Assembly: GCF_000195915.1 (NCBI RefSeq)
Contig: NC_002578.1
Coordinates: 1-64,000 of the forward strand
Source of the DNA: Thermoplasma acidophilum DSM 1728
GTDB lineage: Archaea > Thermoplasmatota > Thermoplasmata > Thermoplasmatales > Thermoplasmataceae
Direction of reading: 5' to 3'
Length of the DNA stretch: 64,000 nt
The notes under the pieces: generated by a model
What the model was told of the DNA's origin: nothing
What the model saw: the letters and a program-made list of their open reading frames with translations, nothing else
Databases searched by the model: none
Translations under genes and position numbers: made by a program
Shown: positions 15,264 through 28,595 of the stretch, piece by piece
Layout: each line of letters starts with the position of its first letter
Position numbering within the stretch: position 1 is the first letter of the stretch

Positions 15264-16157
15264 TCAGGCCAGAGCGTAAGTGAATGCCATTCCTATCAGC
15301 GGTGAAAGGATCCACATGATCACTATGTAGAGAAACGGCTTCAAATATATGGCCTTCGCCCTGTATGACAGCCCGGCCCCAAGCACCGCTGAGGTGAGCG
15401 TCTGTGTGTTGGACATGGGGATTGAAAAAAGCGTGGAAACTTCGACGACAAGTGCTGAAATGAGCTGGGAGCTGAACGCATTGGTGTACTTCATCATGTA
15501 CATGTTCTGGGAAACGCTCTTCATTATACCGGAGCTGAAGAAGAACGTACCTATGACAGATCCTATGGATATGAGGATCTCATTGAAAACAGCCGTGCCA
15601 GATATGTCACCCAAGAAGCCAATGGTGTTTGCTCCTAAGGTAAAGGCCGTGAAAATTGCGGTAACTATGGGCATCACCTTTATTGCTGAAGCGTACCGCC
15701 ATATGTCACCGTGCCGCATCTTTGACAGCCTGTCGTTGAATACGTAAGATGATCCCACGGATATCAGGGGCGCAGCTATCCATGCAATTATTACCTCAGT
15801 CAGAAACCTCGCGTCAGAACTGTATCCGAGCTTCAGCGAAAGGCCTATCGCTGAACCAACAAGGGCCATGGTGAGAGATATGGGAACCTTTACGAAAAAC
15901 GCGATCGTGAATATCACAAATGATGCTATTATGGCGTAAAGCACGTATTCTGGTTCAAATGGCAGCAGTTCGTTTACGGCATGTTGCAGGAACCTGCCCT
16001 CCAGAAGATAGCCGGCTATGTATCCCACTGCGGTTATGGCAAGTGCAAGGCTCTTGTTCATCATCTTCGATCCGATTATGGTGCCGGATACCGCGGATGA
16101 GTTGTTGCCTGCCACGAGTATTACGAGCAGAAATGAGAAAATTAATATTGCCAACAT
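15264..16157 (-). CDS. Inorganic phosphate transporter, Pit family
   Basis: 297-residue membrane protein with about eight helices. Pit-family signatures occur in both repeats: VAGNNSSAVSGTIIGSK near the N terminus and PMSNTQTLTSAVLGAGLSY near the C terminus, plus FTLGANTIGFLG in the middle. It should bring phosphate into the cell with protons or cations. Its ATG shares one base with the TGA of the upstream DUF47 gene, so the two are co-translated; this pairing is standard for Pit/DUF47 operons. It is somewhat shorter than typical Pit proteins. Confidence 0.9.
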   Translation of the reverse strand: MLAILIFSFLLVILVAGNNSSAVSGTIIGSKMMNKSLALAITAVGYIAGYLLEGRFLQHAVNELLPFEPEYVLYAIIASFVIFTIAFFVKVPISLTMALVGSAIGLSLKLGYSSDARFLTEVIIAWIAAPLISVGSSYVFNDRLSKMRHGDIWRYASAIKVMPIVTAIFTAFTLGANTIGFLGDISGTAVFNEILISIGSVIGTFFFSSGIMKSVSQNMYMMKYTNAFSSQLISALVVEVSTLFSIPMSNTQTLTSAVLGAGLSYRAKAIYLKPFLYIVIMWILSPLIGMAFTYALA

Positions 16158-16837
16158 CAGCTGGTTATCGACCTTGTTATTGTTATTATCAGATCTGCAG
16201 CATCCTCGCAGTCATCAAGCATGTCGTCTATCTTGTGCGTCAGATCTGTAAGATGCGAGAACACAAGATAAGGCAAACCGTCGGCATTTCTGTATATGTA
16301 ATCGAAGGTGTCGTCCTTCAGTTCGTCCACCTTCTCCTCCAGTTTCTCTATTGCGATCCTCTCGTCCCTGATCTTGTCATCTTCAGACGCAGTCAGCATC
16401 TGGTTGAGGTGCTTCAATGCGGCTTTGTTATACTCCAGCATGGATATGAACGTTGAATAGCTCTTTGCCACAAGGTTTATGCATTTCTCCATCCCTCCAG
16501 CGTAGTCAAGGAACATCCTCTTTATCTCCCTGCTTATGAAGTATCCCGTATCAACCATGTCATCGCACTTCTCCACCAGCTGAAGGAGGTTATTCATCAG
16601 GGTTGGGCTTATCGCGCCCTTTGTTATGTCCTGCCTTATGGAGATGTCAAGCTCATCGCCAACCTTTTCTATCTCCTTTATCTCCTCGTTCTTCTCAACA
16701 AGCGAGTTCCTGTTGGAGAGCATATCTATGAGTATGTCGCTCTCTTTGTAAGCTAGCTCGGTATAATCCGTTAATCGGGACAGTATATCCTTCTCACCTA
16801 CGGATATTATCCTTTTTAAAAAGTGAGAATTGACCAT
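16157..16837 (-). CDS. DUF47/PhoU-like regulator of the phosphate transporter
   Basis: 226-residue all-helical protein with the DUF47 (PhoU-related) pattern: repeated Glu/Asp-rich helices such as EEIKEIEKVGDELD and LLQLVEKCDDMVDTGYFIS, which carry the metal-binding E/DxxxD-type residues of PhoU folds. It is presumed to govern the adjacent Pit transporter. The gene leads the operon. Minus-strand AT-rich sequence about 16877-16901 (TTTTTAAAAATATATATTG) supplies a promoter candidate. Confidence 0.85.
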   Translation of the reverse strand: MVNSHFLKRIISVGEKDILSRLTDYTELAYKESDILIDMLSNRNSLVEKNEEIKEIEKVGDELDISIRQDITKGAISPTLMNNLLQLVEKCDDMVDTGYFISREIKRMFLDYAGGMEKCINLVAKSYSTFISMLEYNKAALKHLNQMLTASEDDKIRDERIAIEKLEEKVDELKDDTFDYIYRNADGLPYLVFSHLTDLTHKIDDMLDDCEDAADLIITITRSITS

Positions 16838-19685: not shown

Positions 19686-20456
19686 ATGCATCTTATAGTC
19701 GCTTCCAGATCGGATCCAGCAAGCGTCAGGATGCTGGATTATCTCACCGAAAAGTACACATTCTCTGAGAAAGGCGGGGTTCTAAACCATGGGGACTTCG
19801 ATCTCGTGATCATAGAGGACAGGCACATTTTCCATGATATGTCGCTTTCAGGAAAATACGACTATTTGGTTGTTCTCTCAAGGCATTCATCCGCAGCAGA
19901 TGTGAAATCTCTCACCGCACACCCGACTGGCAACTTCGGGCCTTCAGCAGATCTTGGTGGCAAACCGAGGACCATAAACATCTCATGCCCCAGGGTCATG
20001 TCCGGGACGCTGCGGAGGATGATGGAATCCTATTCCGGCAGCAGATTTGAGGTCACATTTGAGGCCACGCACCATGGCCCGATCTTCGATATACCGAACT
20101 ACTATGTTGAAATAGGTACAACAGAAAACGAGTGGAACGATCCTGAAGCGCTGAGTACCACGGTTGACTCCGTCATGAACCCTGACGTTCGCGATTACGA
20201 TGCCTTTGTGGGTGTAGGCGGCGGCCACTACGCACCGAAGATAAAGGAGTATTTCAGGGAGAACAGTGTGAATATAGGCCATATAATATCCAAGCATGAC
20301 CATGACGCCCTTGAGCCATGGGAGATAGACATGGCCGTCAAGAGGACCCCTGGATGCAAAGGTTTCATTATGGACAGAAAGGGTACGCGCGGAAACGTGA
20401 GGGAGATGGTCAAGAAATATGCTGACGAAAATTCTCTGGAATTGATCACCATATGA
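19686..20456 (+). CDS. dtdA: D-aminoacyl-tRNA deacylase DtdA
   Basis: 256-residue archaeal/plant-type (GEK1) deacylase that frees tRNA mischarged with D-amino acids. Family segments are clear: VVLSRHSSAADVKSLTAHPT, FEATHHGPIFD and GVGGGHYAPK, rich in metal-binding His. TATA-like TTATAAGATG at 19658-19667 lies 24 bases before the ATG. The last four bases overlap the next gene (ATGA). Confidence 0.94.
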   Translation: MHLIVASRSDPASVRMLDYLTEKYTFSEKGGVLNHGDFDLVIIEDRHIFHDMSLSGKYDYLVVLSRHSSAADVKSLTAHPTGNFGPSADLGGKPRTINISCPRVMSGTLRRMMESYSGSRFEVTFEATHHGPIFDIPNYYVEIGTTENEWNDPEALSTTVDSVMNPDVRDYDAFVGVGGGHYAPKIKEYFRENSVNIGHIISKHDHDALEPWEIDMAVKRTPGCKGFIMDRKGTRGNVREMVKKYADENSLELITI

Positions 20457-20944
20457 TCTACATTTATTTCATATACCTGAAGCAGGACGATCCAAAAAAA
20501 TCCACCATGAGGAAGCTTGAGCGTTTTGGAATCGCCAGGAGAATAAGCCCTGGCGGTGCCAGGGATAAGCTGATGCTCACCAGATCTGCTGATACGGTGC
20601 TGTCAAAGAATGACAGGTTCATTGCGGAAAGAAGCGGCATCTGCGTCATTGAGGGCTCATGGAACAGGGAGGATACATTCGCAGGCCTTCGCTTTCCGTA
20701 TGGCCGCAGGCTTCCAAAGCTTCTGGCGGCCAATCCGGTCAACTACGGAAAGCTGGAAAAACTCTCCTCAATAGAGGCCGTTGCGGCGGCCCTGTATATA
20801 ATGGGCTTTCAGGACGATGCATCAGCGATACTGTCTAAGTACACATGGGGCCAGAATTTCCTTCAACTTAACAAAAATCCACTGGATGAATACCGCGAGG
20901 CGGATCCTGAAAAAATTCCGGAGATCGAGAACGCCTATTTCTGA
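20453..20944 (+). CDS. tsr3: rRNA aminocarboxypropyltransferase Tsr3 (DUF367)
   Basis: 163-residue Tsr3-type enzyme that transfers the 3-amino-3-carboxypropyl group of AdoMet to small-subunit rRNA. The family signatures are VIEGSWN, RRLPKLLAANPVNYGK, LSSIEAVAAALYIMG and KYTWGQNFLQLN. The start ATG overlaps the dtdA stop by four bases, so the pair is translationally coupled. The convergent PP-loop gene ends two bases beyond its stop. Confidence 0.92.
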   Translation: MIYIYFIYLKQDDPKKSTMRKLERFGIARRISPGGARDKLMLTRSADTVLSKNDRFIAERSGICVIEGSWNREDTFAGLRFPYGRRLPKLLAANPVNYGKLEKLSSIEAVAAALYIMGFQDDASAILSKYTWGQNFLQLNKNPLDEYREADPEKIPEIENAYF

Positions 20945-20945
20945 A

Positions 20946-22379
20946 TCATGGGGTTCCCATCCGTACCCATCTCCCGCCGTCTATTCTGTATGCACCGTTT
21001 GCGTATTCTGATATTATGCGCAGAACACCGTCGCGGAACTCGTCCGGAACCTTTGAAAGCAGTCTATCCTCTCCGGGCAGTATGTGAATGCCTTCCACAT
21101 GGCTCTCATCTCTCTGGCCAAGGAAAACTGATCTTGTAAGGTAATCCAGTTCAACAGGATCGAGACGCATGTTTGCCGTTTCAAGGTTCTTCTTCAGGTT
21201 CTTGACCGCTTCCGGTTTGTAGCCTGCGGTGGTGGGATCGCCTCCGGCATTGATCATGAAGAGAAGTACGCCAAGGCACTTTGTGCATCTGCCGCACGGA
21301 ACGACCTCTTCCCCCTCATAATGGCAGAGGTGGCATGATCTCTGTATCCTGAGCAGTTCCGGGTATCTCTTCACGAGTATCTTCTCAACAAGAGTACCGA
21401 ATATTGGGTAAACCGCTGAAAATACGCGGACAGGCATCCCGATCCTGGCAAGCAGATCGGAGACGGTGTCATTGAACTCATTCGTCTGGTCGTACACCCC
21501 GTAGAAATGCTTTATTCCCCTGTATTTCTCCTGATAGATCGGATCATCGAACTCGTCACCAAGGGCTATATTCCCTATGCCGTATTTTATAACATAGGGC
21601 AGCATAGAGAAAACGTAGACTGGAAAGATGAACATCTGCACTGGATAGCTGTCAGCTGTTTTCCTTATCTCCTTCTGGTCAAGCATCGGCATGTGCCCGT
21701 TCATAAAGGAATAGAAACGGTCTACGTTAGACCATACCTTGTGTACATTGCTGTAATTTTTCTTCATGTAATCGTAGGCAATCTTGGCCGTCTTCCAGTG
21801 TCCACCGGACTCGTTGAAGAACACAGGAAAAACGTCAGCGCCGATCTCCCGCAGCATTCCAAACGTGGTAAGGCTCTCCTTCCCGCCAGATGACATCACG
21901 GCAACCCTGTTTCTTTCTGTGGCCAGATGGAATGGTTCATTGCTGTAAACGGACTCAGCGCTTATAATCGTATGACCCTCCGCGTTTTCCTGCGTTATTT
22001 CGCTTTCATCCGGAAGGTAATCTCTCCTGAAGAACTCGTACCTTCTCCTCACTATGCTGTTTATGAACGTCTCGATGTTGTTTATCCTGACAAACTCGCG
22101 CAGCTGATCTAGAAAACTCTTTGGCACCGGAAAATTCAGCCTGATCTCCCTTGTGAAGTACGCATAGTTAACCACTGGAAGAGAGGCGATCATCCCAGCG
22201 ACGCGATCATCCAGCGGTACATCCTCGTCGTAGTCGAAGTAGAGGTTAAATGAAAGATCATCCGCTAATATCCTGGCTTTTATCCTTCTGCCTGAAACTG
22301 AATCGATGCTGACCTGGATGAGATCGAACTGGCGGACCCTGTCGTAGTAATTTCTTGAATCCTCAACGCTAGTGTTCAA
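20946..22379 (-). CDS. PP-loop ATPase with Cys-rich C-terminal cluster, function unknown
   Basis: 477 residues. An N-terminal domain of about 155 residues has no recognised match. A PP-loop ATP pyrophosphatase domain follows, with SGGKES at 164-169. A Cys cluster lies near 349-368 (CHLC, then CGRCTKC), fit for zinc or an iron-sulfur cluster. PP-loop enzymes adenylate a carboxyl, carbonyl or tRNA base; the layout recalls MurL-type glutamate epimerases and QueC/ExsB relatives, but no assignment is secure. It is the last gene of a three-gene operon, 29 bases after the DUF1611 gene, whose partners suggest amino-acid or amino-acid-conjugate chemistry. Confidence 0.7.
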   Translation of the reverse strand: MNTSVEDSRNYYDRVRQFDLIQVSIDSVSGRRIKARILADDLSFNLYFDYDEDVPLDDRVAGMIASLPVVNYAYFTREIRLNFPVPKSFLDQLREFVRINNIETFINSIVRRRYEFFRRDYLPDESEITQENAEGHTIISAESVYSNEPFHLATERNRVAVMSSGGKESLTTFGMLREIGADVFPVFFNESGGHWKTAKIAYDYMKKNYSNVHKVWSNVDRFYSFMNGHMPMLDQKEIRKTADSYPVQMFIFPVYVFSMLPYVIKYGIGNIALGDEFDDPIYQEKYRGIKHFYGVYDQTNEFNDTVSDLLARIGMPVRVFSAVYPIFGTLVEKILVKRYPELLRIQRSCHLCHYEGEEVVPCGRCTKCLGVLLFMINAGGDPTTAGYKPEAVKNLKKNLETANMRLDPVELDYLTRSVFLGQRDESHVEGIHILPGEDRLLSKVPDEFRDGVLRIISEYANGAYRIDGGRWVRMGTP

Positions 22380-22408
22380 AATGTATCACCAAAATTAAAA
22401 AAATTATT

Positions 22409-23443
22409 TCAGATCTTGTAGCTGTCGATCTCTCTTGTAACGGAGGAAAGCCTCTGCAGCGGGTCAAAAACAGGTATTCCAAACTTTGCCTGCAGCTTTG
22501 ATTTTTCCTCCTTGATCATGGATTCGTCCATGTTCTCGGTATTGAGCGCGATGGCTATGACACGTTTGTTTGACAGGAGCTCAAGTATGTTTATGAACTT
22601 CTCCAGAGGCGGGATCTCGTATCCAGGGAAGCCGTCGAAGTACTTTCTCATCGGAGCATGCTGGAGTATGATGGCATCCGGCCTGGTTGCGCCTATGATC
22701 TCAAAGCTGCCAGGGTACGCCGGATGCAGAACGGATCCCTGCCCTTCTATGAACATGTAGTCAGGTCTCTCCACATCCCATGCCTCATATGTTATGGATT
22801 CAAGGGCTCCGGCGACGAAGTCATTCACTATGGCATCTATGACCACCGTGTACTTGAATCCCTGCATCCATGAGGTCTGACCGGTACCTATCATTACACT
22901 CTTCTTTCCTATGGCCTTCATGGCGCGGTTCAGGTAGATGGCCGTGGTGCGCTTTCCTATGGCACTGTCAGTTCCAAGCACCGCTATCTTCTTCGCCTTG
23001 ACCTTCTCAATGTTTCCGGTAAAGAAGTACTTCCTGTCCTTGAACATCTTTCTTACATCCGTTATCTTCGATCCAGTGCGCTTTGCAAGCTTGGAGAATT
23101 CAGGATCATCGCTTATGAAATCGTGAAGGCCGCTCACTATGTTCATACCGTGGTTTATGGCGGTTTTTATGTATGGCCTGTAGCTGTCAGGAAGCACACC
23201 CCCATCTGAGGCAATACCGACTATCAGCGTTTCAGCCCCGCCGCGGAGGCCCTCTTCCACGCTTGAGATTATTGGTATTCCTGCATACCTGTGCATCAGC
23301 ACGCTGCCGGCATCCTGGCCAGCCAGCCTTGAGTCTATCACTGAGAGTATCTTGTAGCGCTTGCTGTACCTTACCAGACCGTTTGCAGTCTTACCGTACG
23401 TTGTACCAAAAACGCCCTCCGACAAAATAGTTGCATTTTCCAT
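22409..23443 (-). CDS. DUF1611 family protein (COG3367), P-loop containing
   Basis: 344 residues. The N-terminal part looks Rossmann-like (ILSVIDSRLAGQDAG), and the C-terminal part has a P-loop GTDSAIGKRTTAIY (about 195-208), then GTGQTSWMQGF and FIEGQGSVLHPAYPG. The family includes DgcN, reported as a D-glutamate N-acetyltransferase in marine bacteria, and proteins found beside dipeptide/glutamate epimerases. The role in this archaeon is unknown. Its ATG shares a base with the stop of the upstream PLP enzyme gene, so they are surely co-translated. Confidence 0.8.
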   Translation of the reverse strand: MENATILSEGVFGTTYGKTANGLVRYSKRYKILSVIDSRLAGQDAGSVLMHRYAGIPIISSVEEGLRGGAETLIVGIASDGGVLPDSYRPYIKTAINHGMNIVSGLHDFISDDPEFSKLAKRTGSKITDVRKMFKDRKYFFTGNIEKVKAKKIAVLGTDSAIGKRTTAIYLNRAMKAIGKKSVMIGTGQTSWMQGFKYTVVIDAIVNDFVAGALESITYEAWDVERPDYMFIEGQGSVLHPAYPGSFEIIGATRPDAIILQHAPMRKYFDGFPGYEIPPLEKFINILELLSNKRVIAIALNTENMDESMIKEEKSKLQAKFGIPVFDPLQRLSSVTREIDSYKI

Positions 23444-24393
23444 TATATCTGCCTCCCGGTTATTACAGAGACAACAGTTTCATCCTGTTTTACCTTAAGA
23501 TGGCCTATAGCAGCCACGGCAGAAGCCGAGGCTGGCAGGGGGTTGAGACCCTCCGCACTGTATATGAGGTTGGAGTAATACACCATCTCCTCATCGCTGA
23601 CGTACATTGCCCTTCCGTGGGTTTCCCTTATTGCGCTCAGGGCATCCTGTCCGTCGAATGATCTGTACGAGACCAGAGGTTCATTGATGCTGGTCTCCCT
23701 GATCTCTTCAGGATTGAGATCCACCACTCTGCTGTATCCATGCCTCCAGGAATCAACTATGGGATTTCCTCCCGACGTGCTGACGCCGACCATCCTTGGA
23801 AGGTGATCGATCACGCCCTCATCGTACATTCTCCTGAAACCATGGTATATCCCAGCCAGTGTGGTACCGTTTCCCACAGGAACTATAACGTAGGAAGGAA
23901 CGGTTAGCAGCGCTTCGTATATTTCGAACGCTATGGTGGCGTACATCATCTTGTCGATGGATGAGTTGGCGGATCCAGGGCTTGCATCATAGAGGCCGTT
24001 GTCCTTGGAAAAATCTCTTATGAATTCCACAGTTTCTTCATATTTTCCGTCGTAGTACAGGATCTCTGCCTGTTCAGACTGCATGAAATCTGTCCTGTCG
24101 TGTGAATAGGATCTTGGAATGCCAATATAGGACTTCACGCCGTACTGATGGGCAAAATACGCTATGGAAGCACCGTAGTTGCCGCAGGTACCCACGGCGA
24201 TCCCGTTGTATCCACCACGCATGGCATTTATAACGTGCGCCTCAGAGATGCGATCCTTCTGAGTTCCTGTTGCGTTAGCCCCTTCGAACTTCAAAAAAAG
24301 GTTGTTCAGATGGAGCTTGTTCCCAAGTGCATACGCTTTTATTGTGGGCGTACGCCCCGGGGGTTTTGCCTCAACGTTTAGCAGTTCTTCCAT
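23443..24393 (-). CDS. Fold-type II PLP enzyme, threonine-synthase-like
   Basis: 316 residues. Hallmarks of the tryptophan synthase beta/threonine synthase superfamily are the PLP lysine in FEGANATGTQKDRI (Lys about 46), the Asn-containing GTCGNYGASIAYFAHQYG, the phosphate-binding GNGTTLAGI and a C-terminal SAEGLNPLPASASA. It is shorter than true threonine synthases (about 350-400), so a lyase, dehydratase or beta-replacement reaction on another hydroxy amino acid is also possible. First gene of the operon with DUF1611 and the PP-loop ATPase. The gap upstream (24394-24533) has AT-rich TATA-like sequence near 24440-24460 for the minus strand. Confidence 0.8.
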   Translation of the reverse strand: MEELLNVEAKPPGRTPTIKAYALGNKLHLNNLFLKFEGANATGTQKDRISEAHVINAMRGGYNGIAVGTCGNYGASIAYFAHQYGVKSYIGIPRSYSHDRTDFMQSEQAEILYYDGKYEETVEFIRDFSKDNGLYDASPGSANSSIDKMMYATIAFEIYEALLTVPSYVIVPVGNGTTLAGIYHGFRRMYDEGVIDHLPRMVGVSTSGGNPIVDSWRHGYSRVVDLNPEEIRETSINEPLVSYRSFDGQDALSAIRETHGRAMYVSDEEMVYYSNLIYSAEGLNPLPASASAVAAIGHLKVKQDETVVSVITGRQI

Positions 24394-25511: not shown

Positions 25512-25754
25512 ATGAAAGCAAATGAGGTATTGAACCTGTTGCGTATTTCCAGAAAGGCACTCCATGTATATGCCTCAACAGGTAAAATAAGGTTTACGGT
25601 TATGCCCAATGGTTATTATAATTATAATGATTAGGATGATTCGGAGGAGTTTTTCGAGGACATCATGGGCATGATCCACCACCATTCTGTGAGGATGCAT
25701 TCAAGAAGAAAAGAGGATTCAATAGAGGTCGGCTATGAAGGTAATGAGAACTGA
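25512..25754 (+). pseudogene. tnpA: tnpA remnant (IS607 serine recombinase), internally deleted
   Basis: ATG at 25512 opens the typical MerR-like DNA-binding start (MKANEVLNLLRISRKALHVY ... PNGYYNYND) and hits TAG at 25632-25634. The same frame resumes after the stop with EEFFEDIMGMIHHHSVRMHS and runs to TGA at 25754, which looks like the usual C-terminal helix of IS607 recombinases. The serine-nucleophile catalytic core that should lie between is missing, so the stop sits near a deletion joint. TATA-like ATTTATATAAG at 25478-25488 precedes the gene. Confidence 0.8.
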
Positions 25755-26896
25755 ACAGGTATTTATCCGTGGTAATGGTGTAATATCCAAAATGTGCCAT
25801 ATGTCAAAGAACCTGTTCAACCAGGCAAATTACATTCTAAGAAATCAGTTCTTCAATAAAGAGAAGATGTCATCATATAAAGATCTTGCAAAACAGTTCT
25901 CAATACCATCAGATATTGAGGAAAACAACAACTTCCAGAAACTGCCTGCACAGACAGCACAGTGGACAATTAAAAAGGTAAAACAATCATGGAATTCATT
26001 CTTCAGGGCATTGAAAGCATATAAGAAGCATCCGGAATTATTTAATGGTGTTCCAAAACCACAAAATAATGGATTTGGAGGTGAGAACTAGATTAGATGA
26101 TAATAGAAATCTAAGAGAGGTTAGAATTATACCATTAGGTTCTGGTTATAATGTAGGGATTGTATATTCTAAAGAGATATCAGATATATCAGATTTAAAT
26201 CCCAAAAGAATACTAGGCATCGATATGGGTGTAAGGAATATCGTAACCATTGGAAACAACATGTCCGAAGAGGGTATTGCTGTTAAGGGCGGTGTCCTTA
26301 GATCCATAAACCAGTACTTTAACAAGGAGTTATCGAAGCTGAAATCGGTAAGCGACAGGCAGAATGATGGTAAGGGGAATACAAGAAGAATAAAGAATCT
26401 CTACGCGGTTAGAAACGGTAAGATTAAGGACATCATGCACAAGCTGAGCAGAGCCATAATCAGATATGCCTTAAGCATGAATGTAGATACGATCGTCATC
26501 GGTCACAGTCAAGGATGGAAGCATACTCCGGACATGGGAAAGAAGAACAACCAGAACTTCGTACAGATACCCTTCAACATTCTGATCGAACAGATACGCT
26601 ACAAGGGGCAGGAAGCAGGCATAAACGTCATCGTACTTGATGAAAGCTACACAAGCGTATGCTCCTTCATCGACAATGAAAGCATAGAAAAGCATGAAAC
26701 GTACATGGGAAAGCGCATAAAGAGAGGCATATTCCGATCCCATAAAGGAATATTGATACATGCGGATCTGAACGCATTATACAACACCATAAAAAAGGCA
26801 ATCTCTGAAGCTTTTGCGGACGGGATAGAGGGTATTGGGTTGTATCCGAGAAGTTTAAGCATCAGAGAGATGATAACTTCTAAAGGTCTCCGTTGA
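25735..26896 (+). pseudogene. tnpB: tnpB remnant (RuvC-like RNA-guided nuclease family), deleted and frameshifted
   Basis: The N-terminal fragment (25735-26091) reads MKVMRTEQVFIRGN... up to GVPKPQ, then drifts to a stop. A second frame (from about 26045) carries NLREVRIIPLGSGYN, the RuvC strand GIDMGVRNIVTIG, the block IVIGHSQGWKHT, DESYTSVCSF and HADLNALYN. These supply candidate Asp, Glu and Asp metal ligands. Roughly the middle third of a normal TnpB is absent at the join and the frames differ (25735 and 26045 frames). The tnpA C terminus overlaps the start as in intact IS607. Nuclease activity is unlikely without the missing recognition part. Confidence 0.8.
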
Positions 26897-26944: not shown

Positions 26945-28120
26945 ATGATGAACAGAGTAGCAATCATCGGGTACGGCATCAGCAAATTTGGCAAACGCAC
27001 GGATGCATCGATGTACGACCTCATATGGGAAGCCGGGTCAGAAGCCATAAGATCAAGCGGTGTTGATAAAAAGGACATTGACTACATGGTTGTATCGAAC
27101 ATGGGCATGTGGAGCTCCGAGGAGTTGCCTGCGGTCGTTGCTGGCGAAGTTCTTGGAATAAGAAATGCAGGGCTTCACAGGGTGGAGGCTGCATGCGCAA
27201 GTGGCAGCTCTGCCATAGCCTCCGCATACGATGCCATAAGGTCCGGCAGATCCAAGATAGCCATTGCACTTGGCATAGAGAAGATGAACGAGGTGGAGAG
27301 CGAAACCGCGATAGAGCTCATAGGAAGGGCTGGAAACTTTCTCTGGGAGTATGAGTTCTTCGGACTGACATTTCCAGGATACTATGCTCTGTACGCGACG
27401 GCATACCTGAACAGATATTCGGGCAAGGAAGAAGACCTGGCGCTTGTATCGGTAAAGAATCATCACTACGCCCACCTGAATCCAATAGCACACTTCAGCA
27501 ACGAGATAACGGTGGATGACGTTATGAAGAGCAGATACATAGCGTCTCCGCTGAAACTGTACGATTCATCGCCCATAACCGACGGATCAGCAGCGGTCAT
27601 ACTGGCATCAGAGGATGTGGCGAAGCAGTACACGGATACTCCCGTTTGGATTGATGCCATAGGTTCAAACCTTGGAACTGCAAATCTCAGCAAGAGGGAC
27701 GATTTTGTTCACATAGAAGCTGCACGGGAAGCTGCTGCCAAGGCATACCGGATGGCGAAAATAGACGCAGCTAAACCTTACAGATACCTTGACGGTGCAG
27801 ATGTGCATGACTGCTTTTCGATAGCCGAGGTTCTGGCATATGAGGATCTGGGCTTCGCCGAGAGGGGAAAGGGCCTTGACATGCTGAGGGACGGTGAAAC
27901 ATACATAGGCGGAAAGATACCTGTAAACGTTGACGGCGGCCTGATATCCAAGGGCCATCCAATAGGGGCAACTGGAGTTGCCATGGCCGTGGAGGCCTCG
28001 AAGCAGCTCCTGAGAAAGGCCGAACCAGGCCGGCAGATAGACGTTAAAAATGGAAAATTCCTGACCCATAACGTGGGCGGTACAGGGCACTATGCCTATG
28101 TTACCATTTACTCTGTGTGA
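26945..28120 (+). CDS. Thiolase family protein (acetyl-CoA acetyltransferase-like, archaeal)
   Basis: 391 residues with thiolase fold motifs: nucleophile Cys in VEAACASGSSAIA (about residue 84), the second-half segment GLISKGHPIGATG with the catalytic His, and a C-terminal NVGGTGHYAYV. Archaeal members of this branch make acetoacetyl-CoA for the mevalonate pathway together with a DUF35 protein and HMG-CoA synthase; the DUF35 gene follows at once, but no HMG-CoA synthase gene is in view. ATGs at 26945 and 26948 are both possible; AAATATGG at 26921-26928 is 20-25 bases upstream, suggesting a leaderless mRNA. Confidence 0.9.
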   Translation: MMNRVAIIGYGISKFGKRTDASMYDLIWEAGSEAIRSSGVDKKDIDYMVVSNMGMWSSEELPAVVAGEVLGIRNAGLHRVEAACASGSSAIASAYDAIRSGRSKIAIALGIEKMNEVESETAIELIGRAGNFLWEYEFFGLTFPGYYALYATAYLNRYSGKEEDLALVSVKNHHYAHLNPIAHFSNEITVDDVMKSRYIASPLKLYDSSPITDGSAAVILASEDVAKQYTDTPVWIDAIGSNLGTANLSKRDDFVHIEAAREAAAKAYRMAKIDAAKPYRYLDGADVHDCFSIAEVLAYEDLGFAERGKGLDMLRDGETYIGGKIPVNVDGGLISKGHPIGATGVAMAVEASKQLLRKAEPGRQIDVKNGKFLTHNVGGTGHYAYVTIYSV

Positions 28121-28130
28121 GGTGAAAGCA

Positions 28131-28595
28131 ATGCCAGAATATATTGCCAGGGATGAAAAGACAAATAACGCACTGCTCGTGGATATGCGCAATCTAAGCA
28201 TAAAGTACAGAATACCGGTTTCCAGGATAGAGAAATTCTACGATGGTCTGGATCATGGCGTCATAATGGGCACCAGGTGCCCTGTGTGCGGCGCCAGGTT
28301 TTTCCCGCCCCAGGCCTGGTGCTCTGAATGTGGCTATTCCGGAGATATGGAATTCTACCAGCTTGATACGCACGGGCATCTGCTGACATTCACAAGGATA
28401 TTCGCAAAGCCGAAGTCTTTCTCGGGGTTTGGCGATTACACGGTCGGCATAGCCCATCTTGACAGGGAAAACCTCAATGTGCTTGCCTGGATCGATGCCA
28501 GCATAGATAAGCCGCAGGTTGGAATGGATGTGGTCATAAAGGTGGAGAAGAGAAAAGAGGATGGTGCCACGATATATCTCATATCGCGGCCATGA
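28131..28595 (+). CDS. DUF35 OB-fold zinc-ribbon protein, thiolase partner
   Basis: 154 residues. A rubredoxin-like zinc ribbon (CPVC, then CSEC 15 residues later) is followed by an OB fold (LLTFTRIFAKPKSF, YTVGIAHLDRENL), the order of archaeal DUF35 proteins. In methanogens the DUF35 subunit holds acetoacetyl-CoA thiolase and HMG-CoA synthase together. GGTGA at 28121-28125, five bases before ATG 28131, sets the start; the frame is open further upstream inside the thiolase gene but is not needed. Confidence 0.88.
   Translation: MPEYIARDEKTNNALLVDMRNLSIKYRIPVSRIEKFYDGLDHGVIMGTRCPVCGARFFPPQAWCSECGYSGDMEFYQLDTHGHLLTFTRIFAKPKSFSGFGDYTVGIAHLDRENLNVLAWIDASIDKPQVGMDVVIKVEKRKEDGATIYLISRP

Follow-up and report, generated by a model that had tools for sequence, protein, structure and literature searches.

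Several described systems come close to an operon of three genes on the minus strand of the 64,000-nt stretch of DNA analysed here (hereafter the window), which belongs to a genome of 1,564,906 bp whose size and gene content match Thermoplasma acidophilum. The epimerase MurL, found in Xanthomonas, Stenotrophomonas and some actinobacteria, uses one ATP, makes AMP and acts on glutamate that is N-acylated and whose alpha-carboxylate is free (PMC8788868, PMC5808125); its discoverers described it as having no known conserved domains (PMC5808125). The DgcN-DgcA pathway of marine proteobacteria and haloarchaea converts D-glutamate to L-glutamate (PMC10845958, PMC12363236). QueC, which belongs with QatC and Cap9 to the PF06508 superfamily, is characterised by a zinc motif, C(x)8CxxCxxC, and by the substrate motifs YxQxHxxE, VPxRN and YPDC (PMC13329287). 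Archaea, T. acidophilum included, are reported to contain D-amino acids, for which neither a function nor a complete pathway is known (PMC6047364). The genes of the operon and the motifs within them are as follows.

23443..24393, minus strand: fold-type II pyridoxal phosphate (PLP) enzyme of the PRK06381 family, 316 aa (open reading frame (ORF) and NCBIfam)
22409..23443, minus strand: DUF1611 protein, DgcN superfamily, 344 aa (ORF and Pfam)
22943..22975, minus strand: DUF1611 P-loop GTDSAIGKRTT, residues 157-167 (DUF1611 family alignment)
20946..22379, minus strand: PP-loop ATPase of a new family, 477 aa (ORF; TTG start at 22379)
21873..21890, minus strand: PP-loop motif SGGKES, residues 164-169 (conserved in PP-loop family alignments; aligns with MurL GGGKDS)
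21276..21335, minus strand: cysteine cluster SCxxC-x9-CGxCxKC, C349 to C368 (family alignments, MurL alignment and QueC pattern)

Transcription runs on the minus strand from the PLP enzyme (24393-23443) through DUF1611 (23443-22409) to the PP-loop protein (22379-20946). We read the operon, with a probability of roughly 45%, as a D-amino-acid module in which N-acylation by the DUF1611 protein is followed by ATP-driven epimerisation by the PP-loop protein. The DUF1611 protein would attach an acyl group to the nitrogen of an amino acid; by analogy with DgcN, which acts in this way on D-glutamate, the substrate is most likely acidic. With ATP, the PP-loop protein would then adenylate this N-acylated product at its free alpha-carboxylate, yielding AMP and PPi, and would invert the alpha-carbon as MurL does on peptidyl glutamate, taking the position that the enolase-type epimerase DgcA holds in haloarchaea and in a sister family. 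The PLP enzyme, of fold-type II, may racemise the free amino acid or act on it as a lyase, and a D-aminoacyl-tRNA deacylase encoded nearby would guard translation against the D form. The proposal that N-acylation precedes inversion follows from the needs of MurL, since an N-acylated substrate with a free alpha-carboxylate is what a DUF1611 acyltransferase would supply. We infer the substrate, the N-acylation by DUF1611, epimerisation over ligation, the direction of the pathway and the PLP step from these likenesses.

The layout of the operon had been described in an earlier, sequence-only reading of the window, and its observations on spacing were reproduced on the sequence: the TAA of the PLP gene and the ATG of the DUF1611 gene both include position 23443, so that stop and start share a base, and the PP-loop gene starts 29 bases past the DUF1611 stop. 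The TTG start codon of the PP-loop gene (position 22379) is preceded by GGTGAT, and the N-terminus is the same in the close relative G099 (82% identical).

Each of the three proteins was used to search 117 Thermoplasmatales genomes and the resulting coordinates were joined, DUF1611 and PP-loop genes counting as adjacent when they lay within 500 nt of each other on the same strand. Of the 89 genomes with both a DUF1611 and a PP-loop gene, 86 have the two side by side on one strand; the PLP gene adjoins DUF1611 in 74/84, and the series PLP-DUF1611-PP-loop is complete and in order in 69 of 82 genomes. The adjacency of these genes is not due to chance. Family f2 and genus g29 keep the DUF1611-PP-loop pair, the PLP gene there being absent or located elsewhere; in family f3 the DUF1611 protein has diverged (36-40% identity) and a PP-loop orthologue is lacking. 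A profile search of the phylum with the PP-loop family retrieved strong homologues in 26 further genomes from other families and classes, 25 of which also hold DUF1611, with both genes within about 60 nt of each other in 24. Across the whole phylum sample the PP-loop protein is strongly matched in 66 genomes, 65 of which also hold DUF1611, whereas 36 of the 101 genomes with DUF1611 are without the PP-loop protein; the PP-loop protein thus seems to need DUF1611, and not the reverse. The PLP gene stands ahead of DUF1611 in most loci of family f35 as well, and the full arrangement recurs in other classes of the phylum (genes in the fetched loci being mechanically called ORFs labelled by BLAST against the window proteins). 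The operon proposed by the sequence-only reading, together with its co-occurrence in Thermoplasmatales and beyond, is therefore well supported. The operon is not limited to Thermoplasma but is also found in other classes, which makes a phylum-level pathway a better description than a Thermoplasma peculiarity.

The PP-loop protein consists of an N-terminal domain of about 150 aa followed by a QueC/MurL-type PP-loop core. The SGGKES motif and the cysteine cluster, both of which the earlier reading had picked out, are almost fully conserved in the family alignments; the cluster is made up of C349, C352, C362, C365 and C368 and is a probable zinc site, judging by its pattern. No Pfam family matched the protein over its cut-off, single-sequence searches of the PDB and Pfam and a 26-row profile were unproductive, and tblastn against plasmids gave no matches. 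An AlphaFold2 model built from 26 sequences reached a pLDDT of 91.5 and a pTM of 0.90, and the best Foldseek matches of this model are QatC, in a full-length alignment, and QueC, in an alignment of the core; phage QueC-like proteins were matched as well. A match of the family to a viral contig was traced to a phage integrase with a short chance-shared peptide and was discarded.

For comparison with MurL, this protein was located by way of MurD2 in Stenotrophomonas and Xanthomonas, as the only MurD over cut-off and away from the other Mur ligases; the 450-aa gene adjoining MurD2 was taken as MurL, an identity that rests on 81% identity (tblastn) to a record annotated murL. The set was enlarged with three Pseudonocardia homologues found by tblastn and with a homologue from a phage-labelled contig. 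Aligned by hhalign to profiles of two, eight and nine MurL sequences, the archaeal PP-loop family gave E-values of 1.2e-4, 1.5e-5 and 1.5e-7, respectively. The nine-sequence comparison had a probability of 94%, a score of 64.8 and 197 colinear columns, and the eight-sequence comparison scored 49.9 against a maximum of 25.9 in 60 column-shuffles and 18.7 for the reversed profile. The aligned core spans the region from the P-loop to the cysteine cluster. When single MurL sequences are used, 190 columns are still aligned, whereas single QueC sequences and the other PP-loop proteins of T. acidophilum align at the P-loop only. Invariant in both the PP-loop family and MurL are G166, S169, E276, S321, S348, C349, C362, C365, K367 and C368; outside the P-loop and the cysteine cluster, the only MurL invariants kept are E276/E238 and S321/S283. 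A structure model of MurL was poor (pLDDT 42) and was left unused.

The two proteins thus have in common a colinear core with a GGK(D/E)S loop, one Glu, one Ser and a C-x-CGxCxKC cluster, a similar length (450 versus 477 aa) and an extra N-terminal domain ahead of the PP-loop. They differ in that the partner of MurL is MurD2 (in Stenotrophomonas) while the archaeal partner is DUF1611 (86/89 genomes, as above), in a host without murein. Profile comparison places the PP-loop protein in a new family, distantly related to MurL but not MurL by definition. Two sets of MurL homologues were met in other settings: those on Pseudonocardia plasmids (loci L180-L182; about 35% identity) lie by WD40-repeat genes, with no MurD2 in the stretch shown, and a faecal contig deposited as a bacteriophage (L189, MT836755.1) encodes a 465-aa homologue with 33% identity.

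The core also matches the QueC profile (E=1.7e-5), and the earlier remark that the protein recalls MurL or QueC accordingly holds for both. The QueC zinc and SGGxDS motifs occur as variants (C352-x9-C362-x2-C365-x2-C368 and SGGKES), and the QueC substrate motifs are absent from the conserved columns of the family alignments. The protein shares with QueC, QatC and Cap9 the PP-loop core fold and the zinc motif, and QatC is likewise N-terminally extended, but in the archaeal operon it is accompanied neither by the 7-deazaguanine partners of those enzymes nor by a QatB or CD-NTase partner. We rejected the protein as the QueC of this genome: the true QueC is encoded elsewhere (238 aa at C1:1020295; PF06508, 266 bits), and the PP-loop protein went unmatched by PF06508 at E<=1 in a search of its own genome. 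We also rejected it as a QatC defence protein, there being no PADLOC match and its partners being DUF1611 and the PLP enzyme, not qat genes.

The assignment of the middle gene to DUF1611 stands, with both DUF1611_N and DUF1611_C matched far over cut-off (219 and 107 bits), and so does the relation to DgcN that had been noted for it, the best named family in NCBIfam being DgcN (NF041892). The protein has a Rossmann-like N-domain and a P-loop C-domain, its relatives of solved structure are 2g0t, 2obn and 7xrj, and G157, T158, D159, G163, K164 and T167 are invariant in the family alignment. Gene order, co-occurrence and the homology of each part are not the only observations on this family, as its partners also switch. 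In the sister family f3 the DUF1611 gene lies near a DgcA-like or dipeptide-epimerase gene; a DgcA-like gene accompanies DUF1611 in 9 of the 24 PP-loop-free loci of the phylum that were examined; and on haloarchaeal plasmids the DUF1611 and DgcA-like genes overlap or abut, in one case with a D-aminoacylase gene upstream. The T. acidophilum operon contains no DgcA gene, and the partner of DUF1611 there is the PP-loop gene. The enolase-superfamily protein of T. acidophilum nearest to the f3 DgcA-like protein is only a distant relative (26% identity), which leaves the PP-loop protein as the sole candidate epimerase partner in this organism. The operon therefore resembles DgcN-DgcA in pairing a DgcN-superfamily DUF1611 with a candidate epimerase, and differs in that this candidate is a PP-loop ATPase rather than an enolase-superfamily enzyme. 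Strict mutual exclusion of PP-loop protein and DgcA was considered as well, and fails outside family f3.

The PLP enzyme passes the NCBIfam PRK06381 "threonine synthase" equivalog (501 bits, cut-off 266). It was rejected as the only threonine synthase, as a second, separate one is encoded in the T. acidophilum genome (568 bits with PRK06450). The Arg of the threonine synthase motif NPYRxEG (2zsj), which binds the phosphate of O-phosphohomoserine in the solved enzymes, is replaced in all operon orthologues examined and kept, as FRDG, in the second T. acidophilum threonine synthase. Lys46 (TQKDR) is the probable Schiff-base lysine, and an invariant Cys70 (TCGNYG) occupies the position of Ser84 of serine racemase, the re-face serine of that enzyme. 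The sequence is thus of fold-type II with a Schiff-base lysine, like threonine synthase of PRK06381 and serine racemase, and departs from the former in the lost phosphate Arg and from the latter in the invariant Cys. Because a second synthase exists, the phosphate-binding Arg is lost and a Cys replaces the serine racemase Ser, the role of threonine synthase in the cell probably does not fall to the PLP enzyme, in line with the sequence-only reading; a racemase is plausible. The title of Long 2001, as cited in PMC6047364, names D-amino acids in T. acidophilum together with a PLP-dependent aspartate racemase, and the PLP gene of the operon is a candidate for the reported activity.

Two genes lie next to the operon on the other strand.

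19686..20456, plus strand: D-aminoacyl-tRNA deacylase (PF04414, 216 bits)
20453..20944, plus strand: TSR3-like 16S rRNA aminocarboxypropyltransferase (a conserved neighbour in convergent orientation to the PP-loop gene)

The deacylase had been pointed out as a neighbour, and the link proves to be stronger than was stated, as in most sister genera the cluster begins with the deacylase gene. It is the first gene, directly upstream and on the same strand, in 22 of the 25 sampled loci of the family of T. acidophilum, giving the order deacylase-PLP-DUF1611-PP-loop (PF04414 being found for the deacylase in T. acidophilum and in locus L077); in Thermoplasma it has been relocated to the far side of the operon. 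The TSR3-like gene, which probably has no part in the pathway, converges on the PP-loop gene in nearly every f1 and f5 locus. In most loci outside Thermoplasmatales (L116-L135) the gene that faces the PP-loop gene convergently encodes a GNAT acetyltransferase; inside the order this place is taken by TSR3. In six f35 loci (L116, L117, L118, L121, L123 and L124) the genes for a DgcA/YcjG-like epimerase and an M14 carboxypeptidase stand in tandem by the PP-loop gene, although the M14 match is marginal (22.3 bits against a cut-off of 21.6). The E. coli ycjG-mpaA pair, encoding an L-Ala-D/L-Glu epimerase and an M14 murein tripeptide amidase, is comparable, and the f35 tandem suggests the use of murein peptides by these archaea; no such pair lies beside the Thermoplasma operon.

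The direction of the proposed pathway is not fixed by analogy, given that MurL reportedly works from L to D only and DgcN-DgcA from D to L. Thermoplasma-type archaea live by scavenging. We slightly favour D-to-L salvage of scavenged bacterial material over D-amino-acid synthesis, because of the murein-peptide genes by the f35 operons and this scavenging life.

Several results weigh against a D-amino-acid module of this kind. The one-way action reported for MurL fits synthesis better than salvage. The MurL signatures NERS, NHQW-K and KP-ECVG are missing from the PP-loop family, which means that the active sites differ; the N-domain profiles of the two show no detectable relation (E=0.7, score 9.5 against a shuffled maximum of 19.6); and an HMM of the PP-loop family found nothing in the Stenotrophomonas or Xanthomonas genomes, MurL included. 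The QueC match nearly equals the eight-sequence MurL match, and QueC-type enzymes ligate rather than epimerise. The DUF1611 protein falls far short of the DgcN cut-off (193 bits against 480), nor does the f3 copy that lies beside DgcA (243 bits). Replacement of DgcA is not clean, as many f1, f2, f5 and f35 genomes hold both PP-loop and DgcA-like proteins. No PLP orthologue lies near the DUF1611-PP-loop pair in family f2, and no deacylase of N-acyl amino acids was seen neighbouring the operon in T. acidophilum.

The main rival, rather unlikely in our view, is that the PP-loop protein is a ligase like QueC, QatC or Cap9, which adenylates a carboxylate and joins an amine to it; it would perhaps turn an N-acyl-D-amino acid made by DUF1611 into an N-acyl-D-aminoacyl amide, or modify a protein or tRNA. 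Ligation is common among PP-loop enzymes, the top Foldseek matches are QatC and QueC, and the spacing of the zinc motif is nearly that of QueC, whose profile matches at the E-value given above. Yet the motifs that define QueC are not conserved in the family, the nine-sequence MurL match is the stronger of the two, and no QatB-like or CD-NTase partner was seen in a locus on which PADLOC found nothing. It would be less surprising to find a ligase than to find another small-molecule operon with no D-amino-acid step at all, for example one for threonine- or homoserine-derived compounds, in which the PLP enzyme would act as threonine synthase and DUF1611 as a ligase that uses ATP. That reading is improbable: the PRK06381 equivalog score speaks for it, as does the resemblance of DUF1611_C to DTBS/CobQ P-loop enzymes (weak AAA_26 and CbiA matches), but the second threonine synthase and the phosphate-binding Arg, kept there and lost here, speak against it, and both the deacylase adjacency and the partnering of DUF1611 with DgcA point elsewhere.

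A translation-linked or RNA-modification cluster, in which a modified-nucleoside enzyme is encoded next to the deacylase and TSR3 and, in f2, also next to a KsgA-like gene, seems highly improbable. QueC is an RNA-modification enzyme, TSR3 is a convergent neighbour in almost all f1 and f5 loci, and ribosomal and KsgA-like genes (their translations judged by eye) lie near the f2 copies; against this, TSR3 is on the opposite strand and gives way to the GNAT gene outside the order, the true QueC is encoded elsewhere, and no known relative of DUF1611 or of the PLP enzyme has an RNA role. Returning to the D-amino-acid module, a more specific form of it would be a second MurL-type branch in murein-less archaea, composed of a one-way ATP-dependent epimerase on N-acyl amino acids made by DUF1611, a Lys/Cys PLP racemase and the deacylase as guard; we offer this form tentatively and consider it doubtful. 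If true, it would amount to a complete, phylum-wide D-amino-acid pathway without a known counterpart.

The operon supplies named genes with which archaeal D-amino-acid metabolism can be tested. The archaeal proteins also form an intermediate family that ties MurL to the QueC-type PP-loop superfamily, and this link suggests a mechanism for MurL and the archaeal enzyme alike, namely PP-loop adenylation of the alpha-carboxylate. Should the archaeal enzyme be an epimerase, ATP-driven stereochemical inversion would extend beyond cell-wall synthesis.

Three further observations were made elsewhere in the window. An IS605 OrfB/TnpB-like transposase at 25735-26896 (plus strand) is split between an ORF of 118 aa and a second of 283 aa that overlap but differ in frame, the second carrying PF01385 and PF07282, and it is probably broken or frameshifted. 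At 15264-16837 (minus strand) a PHO4-type phosphate transporter gene lies immediately downstream of a DUF47/PhoU-like gene, and at 26945-28595 (plus strand) a thiolase gene is followed by a gene for an OB-fold/zinc-ribbon (ChsH2-type) protein, with an overlap of 29 bases.

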